Assembly (NCBI GenBank): GCA_037892935.1
Contig: JAYXKI010000012.1
Location: 1,116,001-1,180,000, forward strand
Direction: 5' to 3'
Origin: Phlebopus portentosus
Lineage: Eukaryota > Basidiomycota > Agaricomycetes > Boletales > Boletinellaceae
Length of the DNA stretch: 64,000 bases
Shown: in pieces, positions 20,462 to 32,603 of the stretch
How the letters are laid out: each line of letters starts with the position of its first letter
Numbering within the stretch: the first letter of the stretch is position 1
The notes under the pieces: generated by a model
Database searches by the model: none
Seen by the model: the letters and a program-made list of their open reading frames with translations, nothing else
Told to the model about the DNA's origin: nothing
Program-made: the position numbers and the translations under genes

Positions 20462-21480
20462 ATGTCAAACAAAGACATCATAAAGTATCCCTTGTTTAAG
20501 GGGAACCCTTATGAGTCGCTTGAGAACTTCCAGAATCAAATGATCAGCCGGTTGAATGAAAAACATCCGAGTGACCCAGTCAAGAGGGTTAAGATTATTC
20601 TGGAATGTCTGCGAGGTCAAGCTCAGACTTGGGTTAATGGCAAATGAGCCGTGAACAGAAATCAATTAGTCTCCACCTACAAGCGGGACACGGATGGCAA
20701 GCTTGTTATAGATAAGAAGGGTAGATGGGACGACGAGGATGATCTATGGAACGAATTAGCGCTCAACCATAACAGCATTTTTGGACTTCAAGAAGAAGCT
20801 GAGTGAAATATTAGGACAATTTATCAAGAACGGGCATGGGTGAAGCAGTATAACAGGGCCTTTGACGACATCAGGATGAGGTTGCCAAAGCATTATGACC
20901 ACCAGGTGCTGATTTATGAGTACAAGAGAGGACTCAATCAGGCAATCCTAAAGGCCCTGCTTATGAATACAGACCACCCAGATTGGGACCTGAACCAATG
21001 GAAAGAGAACGCTAGCAATCTGGAGGCCAGTCTGATAGCTGCCAAGGTGATAGGTAGTAATAGGAAGTACACCCCTATGTTTAAAGATGGGCAGGCAGTA
21101 TTGTACATGCCAGAGCCCCCAGAAGCTCACTGACCAGCCGAGTTTCTGGGTGAGCCTATGGACATTGATATGTCTAGGCACTTTACTAGGGGGTCCTGAG
21201 GAGATGCCGGGATATGCTGGGCATGCAGCAAAACAGGTCACTTCGCACAGGACTGCAACAACGTAGGGTGAGATACACAGGGAAGCCATGGACACCGAAC
21301 CAACTATAAGAGACGGGTGCAGAAGAGACGATCTGGCAAGACTGGCCGCTTCCTAAAATGCCGGGAAGTTGGGATTAGCAGTGATTCTGAGATGGAAGAA
21401 CTACTGGACAAGAGAACGAAGTTACCAAGGCGTAAGGAACGGGCTTCGTATGCCCTCGAGGAGGATTCTGAGGAGGATTC
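20462..21480 (+). pseudogene. Gypsy Gag with CCHC zinc knuckle, broken by stops
   Basis: MSNKDIIKYPLFKGNPYESL starts the frame, followed by LRGQAQTWVNGK and a TGA. Capsid-like sequence continues (WVKQYNRAFDDIRMRLPKHY, then HQVLIYEYKRGLNQAILKAL). A zinc knuckle CWACSKTGHFAQDCN (C-x2-C-x4-H-x4-C) lies at about 21217-21262. Stops at 20645, near 20800, 21131, 21197 and 21481 inactivate it. Gag packages the element RNA. Upstream of the protease ORF, as expected. Confidence 0.75.
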
Positions 21481-22269
21481 TTGAAGGGCCGCCAGTCAAC
21501 ATTGGACACTGGTGAGGGCTCAAAGGACACACAAGAAATAAAGCGCCGATGGACTATTGCTAGACCAAATTCCAACCATCCTTCTATACCCATTGACATC
21601 ATTCAGGGACAGAAAAAGGTTAATCTCTCGGCTATGATTGACTCTGGATCTGCAATCACTACTATTAGCCCTACGGTTGTACAGAGCCTAGGACTAAGAA
21701 CAGTGCCTGCAGAAGGAAACTATACCATCCGGAATGCCGATGGATCGATTAATCATGGTGGATGGACTTGGAATGTCAGAGCAATAGTGGACACAGGGAT
21801 TACAAGAGGCTTAATGGACATTGCAGTGGTGGACACACATGAAGACAAGTTTCTCATAGGAAACGATTGGCTTGAACAGCATAAGCCAACTATCGACTGG
21901 ACTAAAGGAATCCTTCGCAAAGGCGGGAAGGAAATTGCTTTTAATGGGATGGCCCGTTTGCGCTCCATTCAGCTATTCCTAGCCCCAAGGAGACTCTGAA
22001 AGTGTAGAAGATGACAAAGAATTCCAGAATACATACCATCCGAATGGGATGCAGATGACGAAAAGGAAGAAGAATGGAAAACTAGGGTCTATTACCACAG
22101 CGACATCGAATCAGGACAAGAAACCGAGGAAGAAGGAGATAAAGTGCTAATAACGGTACCACCAAAAAGGGAAAAAGAAGAGGAATCTACAGGGCCGCTT
22201 GTAACGTTTGAGGAAGTCATGCATAAACTACCAGAACTCTCGCATCAGGAAAACAGTCCAAATTATCCA
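21481..22269 (+). pseudogene. Gypsy aspartic protease and start of pol (truncated by insert)
   Basis: The open frame 21481-21999 holds the retropepsin active site MIDSGSAITTISP (DSG variant of DTG) and the later LIGNDWLEQHKPTIDW block. After a stop and probable frameshift, pol-like acidic sequence continues (DDEKEEEWKTRVYYHSD) until about 22269. There the AT-rich nested insert begins within ENSPNYP. The pol reading resumes at about 30020. Confidence 0.75.
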
Positions 22270-22274
22270 CTGCT

Positions 22275-22810
22275 ACCCATGGCTACCCATAGCTACTCAT
22301 AGCTACTCACTACTATAGGCTGCTATATAGCAGCCTATAGTAGGTTAGTAGTCCATAGTGATTTATCGTGACCCCCCTACTATATAGAGGGCTGTAACAG
22401 TGTATAGATGCTATAGTTAATATTTATTCATAGTACTAGAAAGAGATGAATAGTGCATAATATATAGCAACCTGTAGCAATTGATACAGATTTATAGTAC
22501 TACTAGCACATAGTGCATAGTGCCTTATAGTAATTAGTATGAGTTTATAGCTGATACTAGATGCTTATAGTTGATAGTTCTTATAGGTGATATATTGCCA
22601 TAGCATATTAAAGATATAGATAGTCATATATTATCATAGATAGCACTTATTAGAGACCACGAGCATATCGGAGAACATATTTAATTTTTATTAAATTTAA
22701 ATATATTGATAGTATACTACTTACAGACCCATACAAGCATGTAACTAATTACATGTACAGCTTACTACAGAATCTATGTGAGCTAGGCATACACTCATAT
22801 ACATCTATAC
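22275..22810. repeat. Left AT-rich arm of the nested insert
   Basis: Dense in ATAGTA, CTATAG and TAGTAG words. Includes a perfect hairpin around 22318-22343 (GGCTGCTATATAGCAGCC). Noncoding. Similar words, but no clean inverted match, occur in the right arm. Confidence 0.6.
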
Positions 22811-23216
22811 TAATATAGACCAATGCTACTTGTCGGAGATAATAAATAGTCAAAAGTGTTAACACTAGACACTGTTGACAGGACAAAGGAACTTCCACTG
22901 GCTTCAAGGCCCAAACTGGTTAACACAAGGTCAGAGTGCACTAGCACCGCCCCAGCTAAGTGGCACAGGTTCAGCAGCGCATAGCACACCTCCAGCTGGC
23001 TGGCAAACAGCCACAGTATAATAGGTGCCGCCCTGGCTAAGTGCACAGGTTCAGCAGCACTCAACATACTGCCTCTACACCTGGGCTGCCCGCTGCGACA
23101 GGGACAGAGGTATCCAAGAACCACAGACCTCCCAACAGCCAGAACAACAATTAAAAGAAAAGGTAATGAAGTGGCCTGAAGCTATTGCAATCTGCAAGGT
23201 GAGAGACGGTTCAGAA
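22811..23216. other. Unassigned sequence left of the Argonaute fragment
   Basis: About 400 bp of higher GC. A 40-bp unit (CGCCC-GGCTAAGTG-CACAGGTTCAGCAGC) occurs twice, near 22947-22981 and 23026-23060. No family recognised in any frame. Confidence 0.4.
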
Positions 23217-23238
23217 TGTGGATGCGTACGCATCCACA
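23217..23238. repeat. 22-bp perfect palindrome left of Argonaute
   Basis: TGTGGATGCGTACGCATCC followed by ACA reads identically on both strands. Its 14-bp core recurs at 26813-26826 on the other side of the Argonaute pseudogene. Confidence 0.85.
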
Positions 23239-23298
23239 ATTCGGTGGCTCAACATAAGGAGCCAATTACCTTACAGGTCCATTCAGCACCAGCCTGGA

Positions 23299-23382
23299 GA
23301 CGTGCATGAGTGCATTCCATGTCCCACATAGCATGGCCAATGCACTGCGCGAGTTCATGCAGTAATCTTGCAGTGCCGTACC
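23299..23382 (+). repeat. Duplicated Argonaute linker segment
   Basis: About 84 bp similar to 23929-24012 within the same pseudogene (shared words GCATGAG-GCGTTCCA, AGCATGGCC, GCGAGTTCATGCAG, GTGCCGTACCT). The extra copy sits upstream of the N-domain, out of protein order. Confidence 0.75.
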
Positions 23383-25559
23383 TAGGAGGCCGTCGACTTG
23401 CGCAGGCACATTGTTGCCGAATTTGCTCAGTCTCAGGAACTATCGCAGAACGTGCAGGGCATCGCGCATGATGGCGTCGGTCGCCTCATCACAAAGCTGC
23501 CGCTGCCGAAAAACTTTCAGGTCACGGTGACAGCACCAGCCCCGTCGTCCGAGGAACTGGGTGCACGCACGCATGATATTCCGTACTTTGTCACACTTGT
23601 CGGACCTAATCCTCTTAAATCAGCGGACCTCGCTGGGTAAGGCTTGCCCTTCGACCGTAATCTAATAGTGATACTGACTTCTTTCTTCAACAGGTACCTA
23701 CGTGGTGAGAATCCCGACTACGATCCTGCACCTATCGTCTCGGCCTTCAACCTGATCGTTATGGCGCATGCCGCTCACACTGGTTTTCGCGCACTCACCA
23801 AGGATGCATACTATTTTGACCCCAATGCAGATACGGGCATGCCTACTCGCCCTAGCATCAAGGTCGTCAATGGCTTCTTCACTTCCGTCCATCCAGTTCA
23901 CAAGTCCCTCATGGTCAGCGTGAATACGTGCATGAGCGCGTTCCACATCCCGTGAAGCATGGCCGATGTGCTACGCGAGTTCATGCAGCAATCTCGCGGT
24001 GCCGTACCTCAGAAATTCTTCGGTAATATGAGGGTAGTTACAAGTTACCTCAGGTACAATAGGCGCAACACCGTGAAGGCGATTGGACCCGGTACGGCGA
24101 GACGGACAAAGATCCAGAGTGAAAAATTTGGCAATATCACAGTGGAGGAATATTTCCAGAAAAGTAAGTCATCCATGGATCGAATAGGAATCGTGCTGAC
24201 TATCGCACAGAGTTCCACATCACACTCCGCCATGCAGATGACCTGCCCGTGGTGAATGTTGGGAAAGAGGGCAAGGACATTTTCGTACCAGCCGAGCTGT
24301 GCAAGATTGTACCAGGGACCCTTTTCGCGGGTGAGCTGAAGTCTGGGGAGAGCGCAGCCCTGTGTGCTGCAAACAACAAGACGCCAGCCGGTCACGCACA
24401 GACAATCACTATCAAGGGTCTCCGTCTTCTAGGCTTCGAGGAGGGCACACCTCCGATGGTCAGCTTCGGAATCAAAATCTCGACAAATATGGCTGTTGTC
24501 GCGGCTTGCGTTCTCCCTGCACCGTTGGTGATTTATCCTTCGGGCCATGCACAAATTGTCAATAGATCTTGGACGGCGCGTGGCATTCAGTTCGCGAGGC
24601 TTGCAGAGCTTAAACGCCTTGCAGTTGTGGTCTTAAAGGATGGGAATATAGAAGAGTCCGACAGCTCACTCGAGGTGCAGGTGCGCGAGGCGGTGAAGGC
24701 TCTGATCGGAAAATGTCATGCACGTGGAATGAACATCAACTCGGACTTCATCATGCAGGTCCTGCAGCTCCACCATCTGAGTCGAGAGGATCCATACCGC
24801 GATGAGGATGTGGACAAAGTATCAAGGTTGTTCGAATCGCTGCCAGGCAGGCCCCAAATGGTTCTTGCCCTCATGTCAAACGAAAATGAGCACATCTATG
24901 CGGGACTCCACTGGTACTTTGACGTCGGCCAGGACTTCCAGTCCGTGATTGGCCTCATTGAGAACATGCTCGACAAGGAGGGCCACAATCAGTATCTGCC
25001 GAATCTCGCGCTCAAGGTTAACACAAAGCTCGGTGGGGTCAACCATCGGCTGGAGCCTGCTTCTCTGAAACGGCTGGCAAACACGATGGTGGTCAGGTTT
25101 GATGTGATTAAGCCGGGTGGGAATGCGGTCAAGGGCGCGCCTGGTATCGCAGCGGTCGTGGTGTCGTGCGACGTGAACTTCAGAAAGTGCCATGCAAGTG
25201 TCTCCCTTCAGGGAGTAAAAGAAGAGGTGAGCTCTTGTTTTTATGCTATTATGCAGGCGCCTGATGCAGCTATTCATAGACAGTTGAAAACTTATGTGGT
25301 ATGATTCTGGAATGCTTAAAGAACTACCATCAAAGCATGGGCTTGTTCCCTGAATGGATCCTTATATTCCGTGCCAGTATTTCAGATGGCCAGCACGCAC
25401 GGGTAATGGCCACCGAGATCAAGCAGCTGAACGAAGCATTCGGTGAACTGAAGAAATACAAACTGAAGTTGACTTACATCACTTGTAGCAAAGGTCATCA
25501 GACTCGGTTCTACCCTAGCCGCAGACGATCCTAAGTTCGAAATGCCCCTATACAGTTTC

Positions 25560-26230
25560 TTGAGTTGCTGTACGAAAACACTGGAACTTGCATATTCCCG
25601 AGGCTGCCCGTCAAACAAGTGTCGATGATGTTGACGACCGTCAGTGGTGGTCGCTAGTTCGGCAAACGTTTGCATGGCAGCCCCATTGACTCTGAGCTTC
25701 AAAGTCTTCGTGATCGGACTGTGGCAGCCTAGACTTCACTGCGGAAACGGGATATAAGCTGGAAGGCTAGGTCGCTGGCGATATGTGGTGGAGGTCTGTC
25801 ATTTCGTTCGTGCTGGTCATGGATGAGGCTGAGACAACGGTATACACGCATCTCCAATTTGTTAGGTGATTCAGCCTTTCCTCTTTGATCGTCACAGAAC
25901 TCCTTTAGAGACAGCAGAGCTTTTGCAGGCGTAAAGATCCAGACAACAACTTGACGGCAAGGTTGAGGACTCACAGTTCATAAGCTGCTGGATCTCCAAA
26001 GCTCGATCAAACGTAGGTACGTCGTACATGAGATAGAGTGAAAGGATATGAAAACACGTACATCGTTCGTGAGACTCGATAGCTATTGGTCCGTTATCTT
26101 GCTGAATTGTGAAACCGTTGCGTACAGCTCGAGAGCAATCTCTGGCAAATGCCCGAGTCTCCGTGAAGTCACTGAAGTTCATCAGACGCATTCTGCACAT
26201 CACGACGACTGACAAGACCTCGTGCTCTAT
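25560..26230 (-). pseudogene. SAC3/GANP-family fragment inserted in the Argonaute PIWI region
   Basis: On the minus strand the region reads TETRAFARDCSRAVRNGFTI, then QQDNGPIAIESHERCTCFHI and YDVPTFDRALEIQQLMN. A retained intron (about 25975-25921) follows, then SLLSLKEFCDDQRGKAESPN and KLEMRVYRCLSLIHDQHE. These are the conserved blocks of the SAC3/GANP domain, the scaffold of the TREX-2 mRNA export complex and related factors. Reading ends with stops near 25730, and a further related piece (AMQTFAELAT) follows to about 25600. Fragment only; the rest of the gene is absent. Its ends fall where Argonaute similarity stops and resumes. Confidence 0.8.
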
Positions 26231-26498
26231 GGTGGGAACGAGCATAGACCAGGGCATGATGAGCATTTACGACTACGATTTCTCTTTGCAGGCTCATGCA
26301 GGCATGCAAGGTATCGCTCGTGCAGTTCACTACACCGTCCTCCATAATGACAAGAAGTTATCTCCCAACACCCTACAGCAAGGCATCAATGAAATCTCAT
26401 ACCTGTGGTCAGCATCAATGAAGGGTGTGAGCCTGAAACTGCCAGCCTACTGGCAAGTCAAGCATGTGCAAGGTGATGTCGCCAGTCGAGGGCAGTAA

Positions 26499-27144
26499 GG
26501 AGGTGAGGATGGGGAAGGAGGGATGTGACTTGTGTGAGTTGCGAGTTGCAAAGTCAACTTTGTCACGTGCAACAAAAGGGTAAGACCGAAAAAAAAAGAC
26601 AAGATTGATGCTCCCCATGTTCACAAGTCCTAATGATAACAAACAAATCTTGATAAAATTGAACCTAAATTTATATCATTATAGCACTTTCTAAAGCTGC
26701 CTGATGTAAACAAAGCAAGCTCAGAAGGTCAGCATAACCAGAAAGTACTGTACTATATTTAAGGTGTTATTTAACTCTATCATGTGATTGCGGGAAAGTC
26801 TTCAAAAACTCGGATGCGTACGCATCTGTTGCTCTTACTCTTAGGAGGTGTGTATTTGGGTAGGTCATGTAACCCATGACTATACTAGCTTTGTACATCA
26901 TCTACACGAGATCTGTATTAAATTGCAAATGTATAACCAGCACTGGTTTAGCACGGACCGTCTAGATGAAATAGGTTGTACATACATATAGATATGCATA
27001 CATGACCTACATCTCTATGTGTAGGCCTGCATATATTTACTCTCTGCTTTGTTAACAGGCTCTGCTGCCTCAACAGTTAGAAATTTTGTTTTCCGCTTTC
27101 AGACCAATTTATAATTATATTTGATTAGAAATTATCAAAATACA
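26499..27144. other. Spacer between Argonaute and HSP70 fragments
   Basis: About 650 bp with no gene recognised. Contains the second GATGCGTACGCATC palindrome (26813-26826) and AT-rich sequence with ACATACATA-like words at 26975-27035. Confidence 0.45.
26813..26826. repeat. Second GATGCGTACGCATC palindrome
   Basis: A 14-bp perfect palindrome identical to the core of 23217-23238. The pair encloses the Argonaute/SAC3 mosaic. Confidence 0.8.
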
Positions 27145-27562
27145 TGCAAGCTTAGCAGATGGTGGCACCGTACACAACAGTCTCATCTGGGTTGATAGAC
27201 TTGCATGGCTTCTTGCTGTTGAAGAAGTCAGGCATGAACTTGACAATTCGGGGTATACAGGTGGAACCATTGACGAGGATGATCTTGTGTACATTGGAAT
27301 TGTCTATCTTGGAGTCCCGGATAATCTTCTCAACAGGCTCAAGCGTGGAATGGAAGAGATCCTGGCACAGCTCCTTGAATCATTGTCGGCATACGTCAAG
27401 AAGATCTCTGACTTCTTCATTGGGACAGTCATATTATGCTTGATAAATACAGTCATGACACTGCCAGTGGTCTCGATACTGAGCGACAGAGGAGCGACAT
27501 TGAGCAAGAAGGGGTCTTGGGTCTTCTCCGAGGTGTCGCCCTTGAGGATAGCAGCCAACAAT
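27145..27562 (-). pseudogene. HSP70 fragments: substrate-domain start, then a misplaced ATPase-domain piece
   Basis: Minus strand from 27562 reads [20 protein letters not shown] then [17 protein letters not shown] and [12 protein letters not shown] (start of the substrate-binding domain). It then jumps to [35 protein letters not shown] and [14 protein letters not shown]. The last three belong before the first in a normal HSP70. This second piece duplicates sequence also present at 28210-28440. HSP70 is a cytosolic chaperone. Confidence 0.85.
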
Positions 27563-27564
27563 CT

Positions 27565-28190
27565 TGTTTGCTTAGAGCAAAATGATCTGCCTGGGGACCC
27601 ACACTATTTGACTGAGTTTGGCCCCAGTCTCCTTGCTCTGGGGACTGCCACACAGAGATCAGAGACAATAACACAAAGCGAAAGCGATACAACATACTGC
27701 ATGTTTATTCATCACTATAGAAGCCGGCATTGTACAGAGGAGTAACAGAAAGATTGAGACAAAAGCCTGCATAAAATTGGTCAGAGTTCAGACATGAATA
27801 TATAGGTTGGGTATGCACTCAAATAGGGCACTAGTCAGACCTGGAGATACACCATAGACATCTTGTGCAACGATAGCTGTCAGTTGAAGATGATATAACC
27901 ATGTTGATACTGAAGAAAGACGTCCATATGCTTATTGTACCAAAGATCTATATGCTTTCCAGTATCTTGAATCACATATTGCACTTGAGGGTATTCTCTC
28001 GATCCATTCTGCACAAGCTCTTATAAGTACGCAATATTGTACGGAGTCACTGTCAAACAATTTTAAATCACACATCAACCAAGATGCTCTTCCTACTAAC
28101 CTCTTTCTTGGTACGTGAGAGGCATGATGATGCTCTTCAGTGCGGCAACTTCATCCAGTTCCAGATTTGGGTCTCCGGTGATGACAGTAT
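27565..28190 (-). pseudogene. RPB1 (largest RNA polymerase II subunit) fragment, embedded in HSP70
   Basis: Minus strand reads VITGDPNLELDEVAALKSII then MPLTYQER, a retained intron (about 28104-28054), VTPYNIAYL, a stop, [20 protein letters not shown] and [10 protein letters not shown]. After another intron comes CLNLSVTPLYNAGFYSDE, corresponding to the universal active-site loop NADFDGDE of multisubunit RNA polymerases, with two of its three metal-binding Asp lost. Then [15 protein letters not shown] joins HSP70 sequence at about 27563. Clearly non-functional. Confidence 0.82.
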
Positions 28191-28202
28191 GTGCCAAAAA
28201 AT

Positions 28203-28998
28203 CAATACATTTCTCTATCAAGTTACTATGTAGACGTCCGCGACAGCCTCATCTTGGTTGCCAGACCTGCATGGCGCCTTGCTGTTGAAGGAGTCAGAAA
28301 AGAGCTTGACAATATAGAGGATATGGGTGGAACCTCCGACAAGGACCATCTCGTGTACATTGGACTTATCAACCTTGGAGTCCCAGAGAACCTTCTCAAC
28401 AGGCTCAAGCATAGACTGGAAGAGATCTTGGCATAACTCCTCGAATTGTGCATGGGTGATTGAGATATAAAAGTTGATACCCTCATAGAGTGAATCAATT
28501 CCAATGGTCATCTGTGCTGCTGATGACAGTGTATGCTTTGCATGCTTGCAAGCGGTACAGAGTCGGTAAAGAGCACAAGGGTTCAATGAAAGATCTAAGA
28601 AAATCAGTGTCAATACCATGATCATACGCCATCGGAATGACTTAAATTACATACCCTTCTTGTTCTTGCATTTGAACTCCTGAATAAAGTGGTTTACAAG
28701 GTGATTGTCAAAGTTCTCATCACCCAAGTGACTATTGCTGACAGTCGCCTTGACTTTGAAGATACCCTCCTCAATGGTCAAGAGTGATACATTAAAGGTA
28801 CCTCCACCAAGGTCAAATATGAGGACATTGCACTTGCCTTAGAGCTTCTTGTCAAGACCATACATGATAGCAGCCACTGTGGGTTCATTGATGAGTTGGA
28901 AGAAGTTGAGGCTAGAGATAACACTGGTGTCGCCTGACATTGCGAGTTGTTAAAGTAAGCAGGAATAGTGATGATAGCCTCAGTGACGGTGCTGTAAA
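28203..28998 (-). pseudogene. HSP70 ATPase-domain fragment
   Basis: Minus strand reads AIITIPAYFNNSQ, a disrupted joint, LINEPTVAAIMYGLDKK, a stop, [35 protein letters not shown], a retained intron (about 28658-28592), [34 protein letters not shown] and [15 protein letters not shown], ending DEAVADV. HSP70 reading then switches to RPB1 at about 28190 and resumes at 27562 exactly where it stopped. The N-terminal third is missing. Confidence 0.88.
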
Positions 28999-28999
28999 A

Positions 29000-29440
29000 C
29001 AGTCATGAATGAGGAGGATAAAGCAGGGATGGAGATGATTTGTAGGTGCTGAGGGTGAAAAGAGTGGCATGACAGTGGTGGCAAGAGACAAAGAGGACAA
29101 CATGTCAAAATGAATCTAAGCCCGTCAAATACTGGCACTGGCCCATGTAGATCTGTGTAGATTTACATAGTTCTATTATGCAAATCTAGTCCAGTTCTTG
29201 TATATCAACTCTCAAAACCTAATCAAACACCATGTCAGTTAGACAAAACTATACAGACATTTATGTTAGATGATCTACACAGAAATGCATATATTTGTGT
29301 ACCTAATATATCTTGTTCTACACAGATTTTCTGTATGATGTAAGACAGATTTTTGTGTAGATTTCCTTATCTTGGGTACGTTCGGCTATACAGGCATGTG
29401 TTAAGGATCTCCAATATGCAGTGATTGATTGCTATTCATA
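29000..29440. other. Unassigned sequence between HSP70 and the right arm
   Basis: No gene recognised. GTAGAT and TACACAGA words recur (29145-29365), giving a loosely repetitive AT-rich stretch. Confidence 0.4.
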
Positions 29441-29460
29441 ACTATGTACTAATATTGATA

Positions 29461-29985
29461 TAGAATATCATCTATATGCATTTATATATTACTATATATT
29501 ACTAGTCATATATTGACTATGTATTACTAATCTCTATCCAGTAATATAGACAGTTTACCACTATAAACAACTATATACTTCTTTAAACTATGGACTATAA
29601 CTATTTATTAGGATCTATACAGAGATATCAGACAATATACTACTATTGATTACTATTTATATCTATGTAGTATATGTTACTATAGGATATCATCTATATG
29701 CATCTATATATTACTATATATTACTATATATAACTAATCATATATTGACTATATATTACTAACCTCTATTGCTATCTAAATACTGTTATGAATTGCTCAC
29801 CACTATAAACAGCTATATACTTCTTTGAACTATTACCTATAACTGTCTACCAGGCCCTATACAGAGGTATCAAACTATGTGATACTATTAATTGCTATTC
29901 ATATCTATATACTATGCATTACTATAGAATACTATCTATATGTATCTATATATTACTATATATTACTATAGTATACTATGCACTA
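29461..29985. repeat. Right AT-rich arm: ~222-242 bp tandem repeat
   Basis: The unit beginning TAGRATAYCATCTATATGCA recurs at 29461, 29683 and (partial, diverged) 29925. Within a unit the same order of words appears (CTCTAT, CACTATAAACA, CTATATACTTCTTT, CTATACAGAG). Noncoding. Confidence 0.75.
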
Positions 29986-30019
29986 CTATGAACTACTATG
30001 GTGTTATAACTCACTATCC

Positions 30020-31338
30020 ATTAATAACTCAAATGGACTGATTTCCTGATGTCCTTTGCGAAGCAGGAAGGGAGATGGAAATTCTTCTGGTTTAGGGACA
30101 AGTGCTAAATAATGAAGAATGAGCAAAACTGGCACAACTTCGACAGTCTCGAGGAAGCGGATAGTACAGTATACTGCACCATGGTCAGGGATATGGACAA
30201 GGGCACCAAACATGATAAACTCCTCAATGAATATGGCGGCATGTATATGGTGCGTCTTCAGCTGCTGGCGATTCAAGGAGGCCTAAGAACAGCGACCTCA
30301 CCAACAACGTCTGAAGCCCAAGCAAGAGTGCGGGAAGAAATACAAGCACAAATGACAATCGACGCAGAAGGATCTGATACGACTAGAAGGAAGAAGCCGA
30401 GTGTATCACCTAAAGGAGGAAAACCTGGACACTACGCACCTGATCCACTCAAGATGCATTGACAGAAGAGTGGAGGAAGTGGTACAGATTCAAGCCCTGT
30501 CATAAGGAGTATTAGGGTAGAGTGGACTCCTCCATCCGTGCACGAGGGCCACAATGACTCAACCCTGGCAGTGCAAAAGCAGTCGGTAAGCTTCACCACA
30601 CGAAGCAGAAGTGCAAGCAGGAGTACTTCGGGTCGGGAGCGCTGTGGAACTAAGGCCACGAAGTGTACTAGGTTTGGCCACCTAGCGAGATCTCCTCCTA
30701 CGAGAGACCGAGGAGTGACTAGACATGAGACGCCGTTCAAGGGTAGGCTAGTGTCTAGGAAAGTGGTCCACCCCAAAGGGAGGGTAGTCCCACTCAAGTG
30801 GCACAGGGCCGAGGTTAGTACGCTACAATCATCAAGTAGGCTAGCTTCGGGAGCTCAAGTGCACCCGCAAAGACTACGGTTTAAGAACCAAATGCAGGGC
30901 CCTGCTCCGACAGAGAAAACAAACAGTAAAGGTAACAGGTTCATTTCGAATTATGCCGCGATGGAGCAGGGACTCTCACAGGGGCAGAAGGGGCACTGAT
31001 GGTGCACGCCTGTTGACTCGGTTATACAGCCGCCCAAAGTGGAAGGAAAAGTGCTAGAGAGAAGAGCTGGATCTGAGATGGAGTTCAAGGGTACCCTAGG
31101 ATCGCACAAGTCCGCTATCTCAACAGATGTGGAGGACGCCTCTCGAAGAGGAAGGCCACCCAAGCCTCCTCACTGGATCCGCCGCCTAGAGCATCGACAA
31201 GTCGCATCTCGGAGAGAACGCCTTCTCAAGTATAACAGCATAGCTCAAAAATATGCGCAAGAGAAAGCACTTGATGAAAGGATGGCAGACTCTGTTGGCA
31301 ACAAAACTCTCGAAGAAATTCTTTCAAAGCAAATATGA
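30020..31338 (+). pseudogene. Gypsy pol, region before reverse transcriptase (resumes after insert)
   Basis: LKWTDFLMSFAKQEGRWKFF resumes coding-like sequence just after the insert. It continues through a stop into 30112-30462, then basic and Ser-rich segments (30478-30999), then 31039-31338 (RLEHRQVASRRERLLKYN; KALDERMADSVGNKTLEEIL). Several stops. No enzymatic motif; probably the linker between protease and reverse transcriptase. Confidence 0.55.
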
Positions 31339-32603
31339 GAGTTCAGGGATAGGTTCGACAAGGACGCCGCTAAATGGCTGCCTAGGTTGGGCCAATGGGA
31401 CATGAAGATCGAGCTCCTACCAGGAGCAGAGCTCCTGAAACCTGGACCGGTATATCCACTCGCTCCTGCTAAAAAGCGAGCAGTAGAAGAATGGATTTGC
31501 GAGGATCTGAAGAAAGGATGGATTCGTGTTGTAGGAAATTGAGTACCAGCTGAAGAAAAGGTGAACACTTGTGCACCAGTATTTGTCATGGCCAAGAAGA
31601 CGATAGGGAAGGATGGCAAGCCGGAGTATAGAATTGTTATTGACTATAGAGGGCTGAATGTGGTGGTCATCCCAGACCACCAACCAATGCCTCTATTGCA
31701 TATGCTCCCAGACGATCTTGCACATGCTAAATGGTTCTCTACACTGGACCTGCGAAGGGGTACAACAACATTCGAATACACCCTGGGCATGAGAAATATG
31801 CCGCCTTCAGGACTCACATGGGAGTATACCAGCCGATGGTAATGCAGTTCAGATTAATGAATGCACCTGCGGTATTCCAATATGCAATGAACGAGCTCTT
31901 TCAGGACATGATTGGGCAGGGCATACTCATTTATCTGGATGACATTATAGTCTATGCAGAAATGGAACAGGAACATTGGGACCTGCTAGCGGAGGTATTG
32001 CGCAGGTTAAGAAAAGCAGACTTCTTCTACAAACCAGAGAAGTGCTACTTCGGAAAGAAGGAACTCAACTATTTAGGATTTGTGGTTAACCAGTCGGGCA
32101 TGCAGATGGATCCCTACAAGGTAAAAGTGGTTCAAGAATGGCCGGATTTGTCAAGCAAGCGAGACATTCAAAAGTTTATTGGTTTTGCAAATTTCTACCA
32201 AAAATTCATCAAAAGCTTCGCCAAGATCGCTAGGCCACTAACGGAACTTATGTCTGGCAAGAAGACCTTTACCTGGGGAGAACGACAACAGGAGAGCTTT
32301 AGGAAACTAAAAGAAGCTTTCACCACTGCACCAATGCTAGTACGACCGGACCACGAGAAGCAATTTGTGCTGGAAACCGACGCGTCAAACTTTGCGATGG
32401 GAGCTATGCTCTCACAGCTAGGGGACGATGAAATTTTGCACCCCATTGGATATTGGTCGAACACCTATTGTGATGCCGAGAATAACTACCTGGTAATGGA
32501 CAAGGAATTACTGGCGATTGTCAAGGCCTTGAGCAACTGGAGGCACCACTTGGAAGGAGCTAAACATGAGATTCGAGTGGTTAGCGATCAAGCCAACCTT
32601 TGA
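31339..32603 (+). pseudogene. Gypsy reverse transcriptase and RNase H
   Basis: EFRDRFDKDAAKWLPRLGQW opens the RT domain after a TGA that replaces CGA. Fingers and palm follow: PVFVMAKKTIGKDGKPEYRI, VIDYRGLNVVVIPD, FSTLDLRRG (first Asp), a frameshift near 31756, VMQFRLMNAPAVFQYAMNEL and the catalytic YLDDIIVYAE. RNase H starts at about 32345 with FVLETDASNFAMGAMLSQ and includes ENNYLVMDKELLAIVKALSN. Stops at 31336-31338 and near 31540 plus the frameshift inactivate it. Confidence 0.9.

Follow-up and report, generated by a model that had tools for sequence, protein, structure and literature searches.

An apparent non-autonomous PlavakaB-type transposon with captured Argonaute, SAC3, HSP70 and RPB1 pieces inside a gypsy element

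The 64,000-nucleotide stretch of the Phlebopus portentosus assembly analysed here (C12:1116001-1180000, hereafter the window, in a genome of 38.37 Mb and 23 contigs) raises the question of how pieces of four host genes, namely Argonaute, SAC3/GANP, RPB1 and HSP70, came to lie within a gypsy element, and whether they serve any purpose there. The insert is very probably what may be called a 'Pack-Plavaka': a DNA transposon from the PlavakaB lineage (CACTA/EnSpm-like group) that is non-autonomous and captured its host pieces as DNA, the cargo being passenger DNA on present evidence.

An earlier note on this sequence had placed the insert in a gypsy pol region, and this proved correct. When the joined gypsy flanks were used as a query, 39 of 40 rows (the best 40 of 64 candidates) cross the junction, the remaining one being the left flank of the window itself. 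Four such empty sites were aligned and read CTC-TCC, while the window reads CTC-TCG-element-TCC. These empty gypsy sites prove that the element was inserted into gypsy. The converse, an original host locus around which the gypsy halves were rearranged, is excluded by these sites and, with other family copies sitting in unrelated flanks, deserves virtually no weight. The AT-rich arms that had been described are present, and the borders required correction from 22270-30011 to the wider 22243-30051 (7809 bp), which are common to 13 two-ended copies. The element, its ends and its flanks are as follows.

22243-30051 (+): whole element, non-autonomous and apparently of PlavakaB type; borders shared by 13 copies, empty gypsy sites
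22243-22259 (+): 5′ terminal inverted repeat, CATCAGGAAAACAGTCC
30035-30051 (-): 3′ terminal inverted repeat, 16/17 identical to the 5′ one
22243-22472 (+): 5′ subterminal region, 78% shared with the transposase-bearing relative on C6
22910-23060 (+): repeat unit common with the large relative, where several copies occur
29424-30051 (+): 3′ subterminal AT-rich repeats, about 82% shared with the large relative
21000-22242 (+): left gypsy flank, with what we take, from its motif, to be a protease-like stretch
30052-31500 (+): right gypsy flank, presumably pol

The search for further copies with the same arms, which had been proposed as a check, was fruitful. The pattern CATCAGGAAAWCAGTCC, with at most one mismatch, is found at 62 termini genome-wide and its reversed-pattern control at none. 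The family has approximately 20 copies in the genome, most of them 92-100% identical, which excludes a chance origin of the insert. There are 30 matches spanning the whole 147-base 5′ end (21 at 90-100% and nine at 84-86% identity) and 21 covering the complete or almost complete 3′ end query at 96-100% identity. Besides the window copy, 12 fetched copies (L009-L020) have both ends in one locus of less than 10 kb, and eight of these (L009-L016) are near-full-length. There is also a lone 5′ terminus at C7:1137656-1137672 (37 bp, 97%) with no partner end listed near it.

Elements of the PlavakaB group have CATCA..TGATG ends and target-site duplications of 2 or 3 bp (Kojima 2025, PMC12730594). The terminal inverted repeats (TIRs) of the present element are 17 bp long (CATCAGG...CCTGATG, 16/17 identical), and among the 13 two-ended copies, window included, 12 start with CATCAGG and one with CATTAGG, that is, with CATCA and CATTA respectively, while all 13 finish with CCTGATG and hence TGATG. 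A flush 2-bp duplication is present in 8/13 of these copies, compared with 23/156 left/right pairs taken from different copies (P 1.4e-4); flush 3-bp duplications were found in none of the 13.

The same termini are shared by about eight larger elements, of which one, a 23.7 kb element at C6:138517-162224, was read through. It has identical TIRs, and its subterminal sequence is shared with the 7.8-kb element to 78% at the 5′ side and approximately 82% at the 3′ side. Its minus strand has two open segments with matches to the Plavaka transposase (PF18759, E-values 1.3e-61 and 2.6e-22), and another minus-strand open reading frame (L029:4239-4814) shows a sub-threshold TET/JBP match (E-value 3e-4); TET-bearing Plavaka families are placed within PlavakaB by Kojima (2025, PMC12730594). 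A PF18759 match lies between both listed ends in six large elements (C1, C2, C6, two on C7 and one on C14), while a second C14 locus and one C3 locus have such a match with ends that are far apart or with just one end listed. A homologue search did no more than confirm Plavaka relatives. No transposase was found in the open segments of the 7.8-kb element that were scanned, nor was a PF18759 match listed at the place of the window, and the element is therefore considered non-autonomous. Judged by its sequence, it is a non-autonomous element of PlavakaB type, agreeing with that group in each of the features tested save an internal transposase. An older, interrupted relative with approximately 36 kb between its ends was also observed at C14:323646-359985 (L034, L041, L042), and holds an Argonaute/filler/SAC3 stretch resembling that of the family.

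Helitrons have neither TIRs nor target-site duplications and end in TC..CTRR. Multi-gene chimeric cargo such as that seen here is Helitron-like, and the gene-capturing Helitrons of Pleurotus reportedly hold host gene pieces in a mushroom, with ends and a transposase type that differ from those of the 7.8-kb element. A Helitron, or a gene-capturing class not yet described, is nevertheless highly improbable in view of the TIRs, the short duplications and the Plavaka-encoding relative with the same ends. A Helitron was accordingly rejected, and the undescribed class suggested in the earlier note gives way to PlavakaB-like termini and a PlavakaB-like related transposase.

The cargo within these ends consists of the following pieces.

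23290-23383 (+): short duplicate of an Argonaute exon-2 piece, within the predicted first intron
23386-25534 (+): Argonaute part 1, broken in the window copy by an earlier stop; predicted exons 23386-23636, 23694-24163, 24211-25226 and 25280-25531, predicted stop 25532-25534
25518-25650 (no strand): 133-bp filler between Argonaute and SAC3
25651-26172 (-): SAC3/GANP fragment, antisense to Argonaute, 90% identical to the host SAC3 gene on C19
26211-26511 (+): Argonaute part 2 (C-terminal PIWI), more diverged
27155-27379 (-): HSP70 piece; 27169-27380 duplicates 28235-28446
27376-27561 (-): HSP70 piece, profile 370-429
27823-28059 (-): RPB1 domain-2 piece within the HSP70 fragment
28221-28931 (-): HSP70 pieces, profile about 154-365

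All four gene fragments named in the earlier note were identified, as was their presence in both orientations (Argonaute on the plus strand; SAC3/GANP, RPB1 and HSP70 on the minus strand). The Argonaute piece matches the Pfam domains Piwi, PAZ, ArgoL1 and ArgoL2 as well as Argonautes in the PDB. The intact gene with which it was compared is a host gene on C4 (L032), which is open over 909 codons with three introns; window 23384-25517 aligns with L032 535-2664 at 88% identity and window 26211-26511 with L032 2682-3005 at 74%. All three L032 introns are kept in the element, where the majority sequence retains 44/54, 43/47 and 44/52 of their bases. This rules out a retrocopy, and the claim that introns persist throughout the fragments holds for Argonaute, the one piece checked. 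With the recurrent arms (62 termini, control 0) and the kept introns, the view of a non-autonomous element taking up host genes as DNA is upheld.

The SAC3/GANP piece is below threshold in Pfam (E-value 0.021), and was identified through the C19 host gene, to which it is 90% identical over 523 aligned columns and which itself scores SAC3_GANP at an E-value of 1e-25. Together with the 133-bp filler this antisense piece separates the two Argonaute parts. RPB1 domain 2 is recognised on the minus strand with an E-value of 4e-15. The stretch bearing the HSP70::RPB1 chimera aligns at 85-86% identity with at least 15 loci that are not near any listed family end, and its RPB1 part with at least 18 rows outside the family at 81-87%; the chimera was thus probably acquired ready-made, since the same arrangement sits at loci outside the family. 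No CATCAGG or CCTGATG was found in the 5-6 kb around two of these loci (L035, L036). In L036 the module adjoins a tnp2-like transposase (Transposase_21, E-value 3e-8) and a weak DDE_3 match. The cargo had been thought biased towards silencing, a proposal which is not sustained: as HSP70 and RPB1 form a single chimera that is also found elsewhere, few independent captures remain. Inspected by eye, the cargo junctions share at most a few bases, which does not prove a mechanism of capture.

Several observations concern the host Argonaute genes. The C4 gene (L032) has a second, inverted copy approximately 12 kb away (C4:1896402-1898864). The C4 product shares 90% identity with a protein of Sanghuangporus weigelae, a match that suggests a Sanghuangporus or a close relative as the host. 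At the site where Argonautes usually have RDGVS(E/D)GQ the C4 Argonaute reads RAGISDGQ, and because of this departure the protein may not slice. Further Argonaute-like copies lie at C20:329826-330893 (L043), C18:90448, C12:1562482 and C10:718347, the longest piece having about 82% identity. L043 has both Argonaute parts side by side without the SAC3 insert, and copies of this type are perhaps the cargo of another repeat.

The sequence is compatible with an action of the cargo by way of small RNAs, as suggested in the earlier note: transcription of the Argonaute piece would feed a silencing that also strikes the host Argonaute gene. Between 102 and 338 of the approximately 2,100 21-mers per copy, in nine copies, match the C4 Argonaute exactly and the cargo is present in both orientations; however, at about 88% identity most 21-mers fail to match, and such an effect is considered unlikely.

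A second possibility is that the element encodes a protein of its own, for which it supplies the following exon.

23166-23198 (+): element-supplied start exon MKWPEAIAICK, then GT; same start in proteins P0002 and P0004

An AG directly precedes position 23386, such that this exon could, as predicted, splice onto Argonaute. The resulting truncated Argonaute (start exon, partial N, L1, PAZ, L2, MID and part of PIWI) would blunt host RNA silencing and so help the transposon, in the manner proposed for TET/JBP genes in Plavaka relatives. In favour of this, the joined frame is open through 674 codons in one of the nine uninterrupted copies, and all four predicted introns retain GT..AG in eight of nine. 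Over 658 host codons the majority sequence of these nine copies contains neither a stop nor a missing codon, a count which passes over inserted bases; apart from the exon-3 insertion described below, it is also free of coding indels. Among 17 Argonaute-type proteins (48 proteins retrieved), two annotated predictions have the start exon, P0002 of S. sanghuang and P0004 of S. vaninii, and P0002 terminates with the stop that the element itself provides (TRFYPSRRRS). P0012 of S. baumii, likewise an annotated prediction, shares 85% identity with the open frame across 455 residues and has no start exon. P0002 was not found at full identity in the genome searched.

Against such a protein stand several features of the copies. 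In each of the eight other uninterrupted copies, that of the window among them, a stop comes earlier; two copies share theirs, so that there are seven stop positions. A one-base insertion in exon 3 (after window position 25182) breaks the frame in 9/16 fetched copies holding the site, and broken copies thus multiplied too; the other 7/16, the host and the older C14 copy do not have it. As these outgroups are without it, the uninterrupted length is ancestral at this site, although the founder of the family may or may not have had it. Early in the history of the family the Argonaute frame was probably open. P0002 lacks residues at the place of the insertion, which may reflect a predicted intron that dodges the frameshift. 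Exon deletions of 7 and 31 bp mark a subfamily (L011, L013, L014) that multiplied nonetheless. The exon-3 site itself, dividing the family 9/16 to 7/16, is a possible subfamily marker.

The pattern of selection bears on the same question. Between element and host, dN/dS (the ratio of nonsynonymous to synonymous substitution rates) is 0.17 in Argonaute part 1 (dS 0.30) and 0.25 in part 2 (dS 0.62), and the former value had suggested selection on the cargo inside the element. A branch test with the older C14 copy as third sequence (573 codons, the inserted exon-3 base being passed over with a few adjacent codons misaligned) places the constraint on the path comprising the host and the time before capture, and selection within the element was dropped. 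That path has 142 changes, 47 of them amino-acid changes compared with 100.7 expected (p 1.4e-20, omega about 0.20). The C14 branch has 143 changes, with 99 amino-acid or stop changes against 89.1 expected (p 0.10 against neutrality), and the family branch has 24, with 14 against 16.5 expected (p 0.28). Distinct differences from copy to copy fit neutrality in each class: 109/177 CpG transitions (p 0.70), 30/52 other transitions (p 0.14) and 5/7 transversions (p 0.62) are amino-acid or stop changes. Constraint thus lies before capture and none is detectable after it, with low power on the family branch (24 changes).

Given the frameshift, the deletions and the undetected purifying selection on the family branch and among copies, the truncated Argonaute is regarded as distinctly unlikely to act on host silencing. 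Its wider form, in which a Plavaka transposon in several Sanghuangporus species would carry a dominant-negative Argonaute brake on silencing beside relatives with an anti-methylation TET/JBP-like gene, is more doubtful still; if true, one transposon group would be armed against both silencing systems, RNA silencing and DNA methylation. The tests run favour passenger cargo.

The mean divergence among the nine uninterrupted copies is 2.5%. Changes of the C>T or G>A kind account for 866/1026 of the differences from the majority, and 586 of these 866 are at CpG, compared with CpG making up 626 of 3538 cytosine contexts. A CpG-concentrated C>T excess is the pattern of methylated-cytosine decay, as would be expected if the copies are methylated.

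For the preferred passenger transposon, the following course of events is envisaged. An ancestral PlavakaB element would have lost its own genes and become filled with host DNA; template switching while a gap was repaired or DNA was replicated may have been the route. The greater part of a functional Argonaute gene akin to the one on C4 would have been captured, with a SAC3 piece inserted into it antisense, and the HSP70::RPB1 chimera would have been taken up ready-made. The transposase of the large relatives would then have moved the 7.8-kb element, whose start exon could splice to the truncated Argonaute frame. Once inserted, the copies would undergo neutral decay in which C-to-T change at CpG predominates.

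Some points weigh against this account. Five of the 13 two-ended copies are without a flush 2-bp duplication, among them the window copy, where TC is followed by one additional G at the left side. Just one of the large relatives has been read through, and the large 5′ end at C6:317231 has neither a listed partner nor a PF18759 match listed near it. The tentative assignment to PlavakaB rather than PlavakaA follows from the ends and not from a transposase tree, and movement in trans by the relatives' transposase is inferred. No source was found for the 133-bp filler at 25518-25650. The exact Argonaute donor was likewise not found: the C4 gene was dropped as such in view of its dS to the two parts of the captured Argonaute, and because these values differ (0.30 and 0.62) the parts may have come from different genes.

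A palindrome, GATGCGTACGCATC, lies at window positions 23221 and 26813, flanking the Argonaute part on either side, and recurs with variants at several places in the large relative (L029-L031). It is possibly a candidate promoter or binding site.

In comparison with known systems, the element has the same CATCA..TGATG ends and 2-bp duplications as PlavakaB, and its large relative likewise encodes a transposase of the PF18759 type, along with an ORF weakly resembling TET/JBP; TET/JBP capture is what the available part of that work describes, while the 7.8-kb element instead holds Argonaute, SAC3, HSP70 and RPB1 pieces with no transposase found (PMC12730594). Like the plant Pack-TYPE and Pack-CACTA elements (PMC8903248), which are a close precedent, it is non-autonomous with transposon ends enclosing captured coding DNA, and it has captured host DNA between TIRs with related genes in the genome (Argonaute 88% on C4, SAC3 90% on C19, the comparison with intact host genes that had been called for); it differs in its fungal host and Plavaka lineage. 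In animals, Pack-TIR elements also combine TIRs with captured DNA, and template switching has been proposed for them (PMC8277862), while here the exact donor was not found and the mechanism is therefore not traceable. No paper on capture of Argonaute by Plavaka or by a fungal transposon was among the matches listed in open-access PMC. The fungal hAT transduplication of histone H3 is likewise a close precedent, with a DNA transposon multiplying a captured host gene, the captured copies in Pseudocercospora being inactivated by repeat-induced point mutation (PMC6710886, PMC3538342). It concerns another superfamily and one gene, whereas here several genes are nested and decay is concentrated at CpG. 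The present element extends cut-and-paste gene capture to a non-autonomous Plavaka, the cited portion of the Plavaka work describing TET/JBP genes; it shows nested capture, with one chimera recurring in several repeat settings; and its Argonaute cargo with an element-made start exon poses the testable question of whether a transposon benefits from a silencing gene or merely carries it as a passenger.

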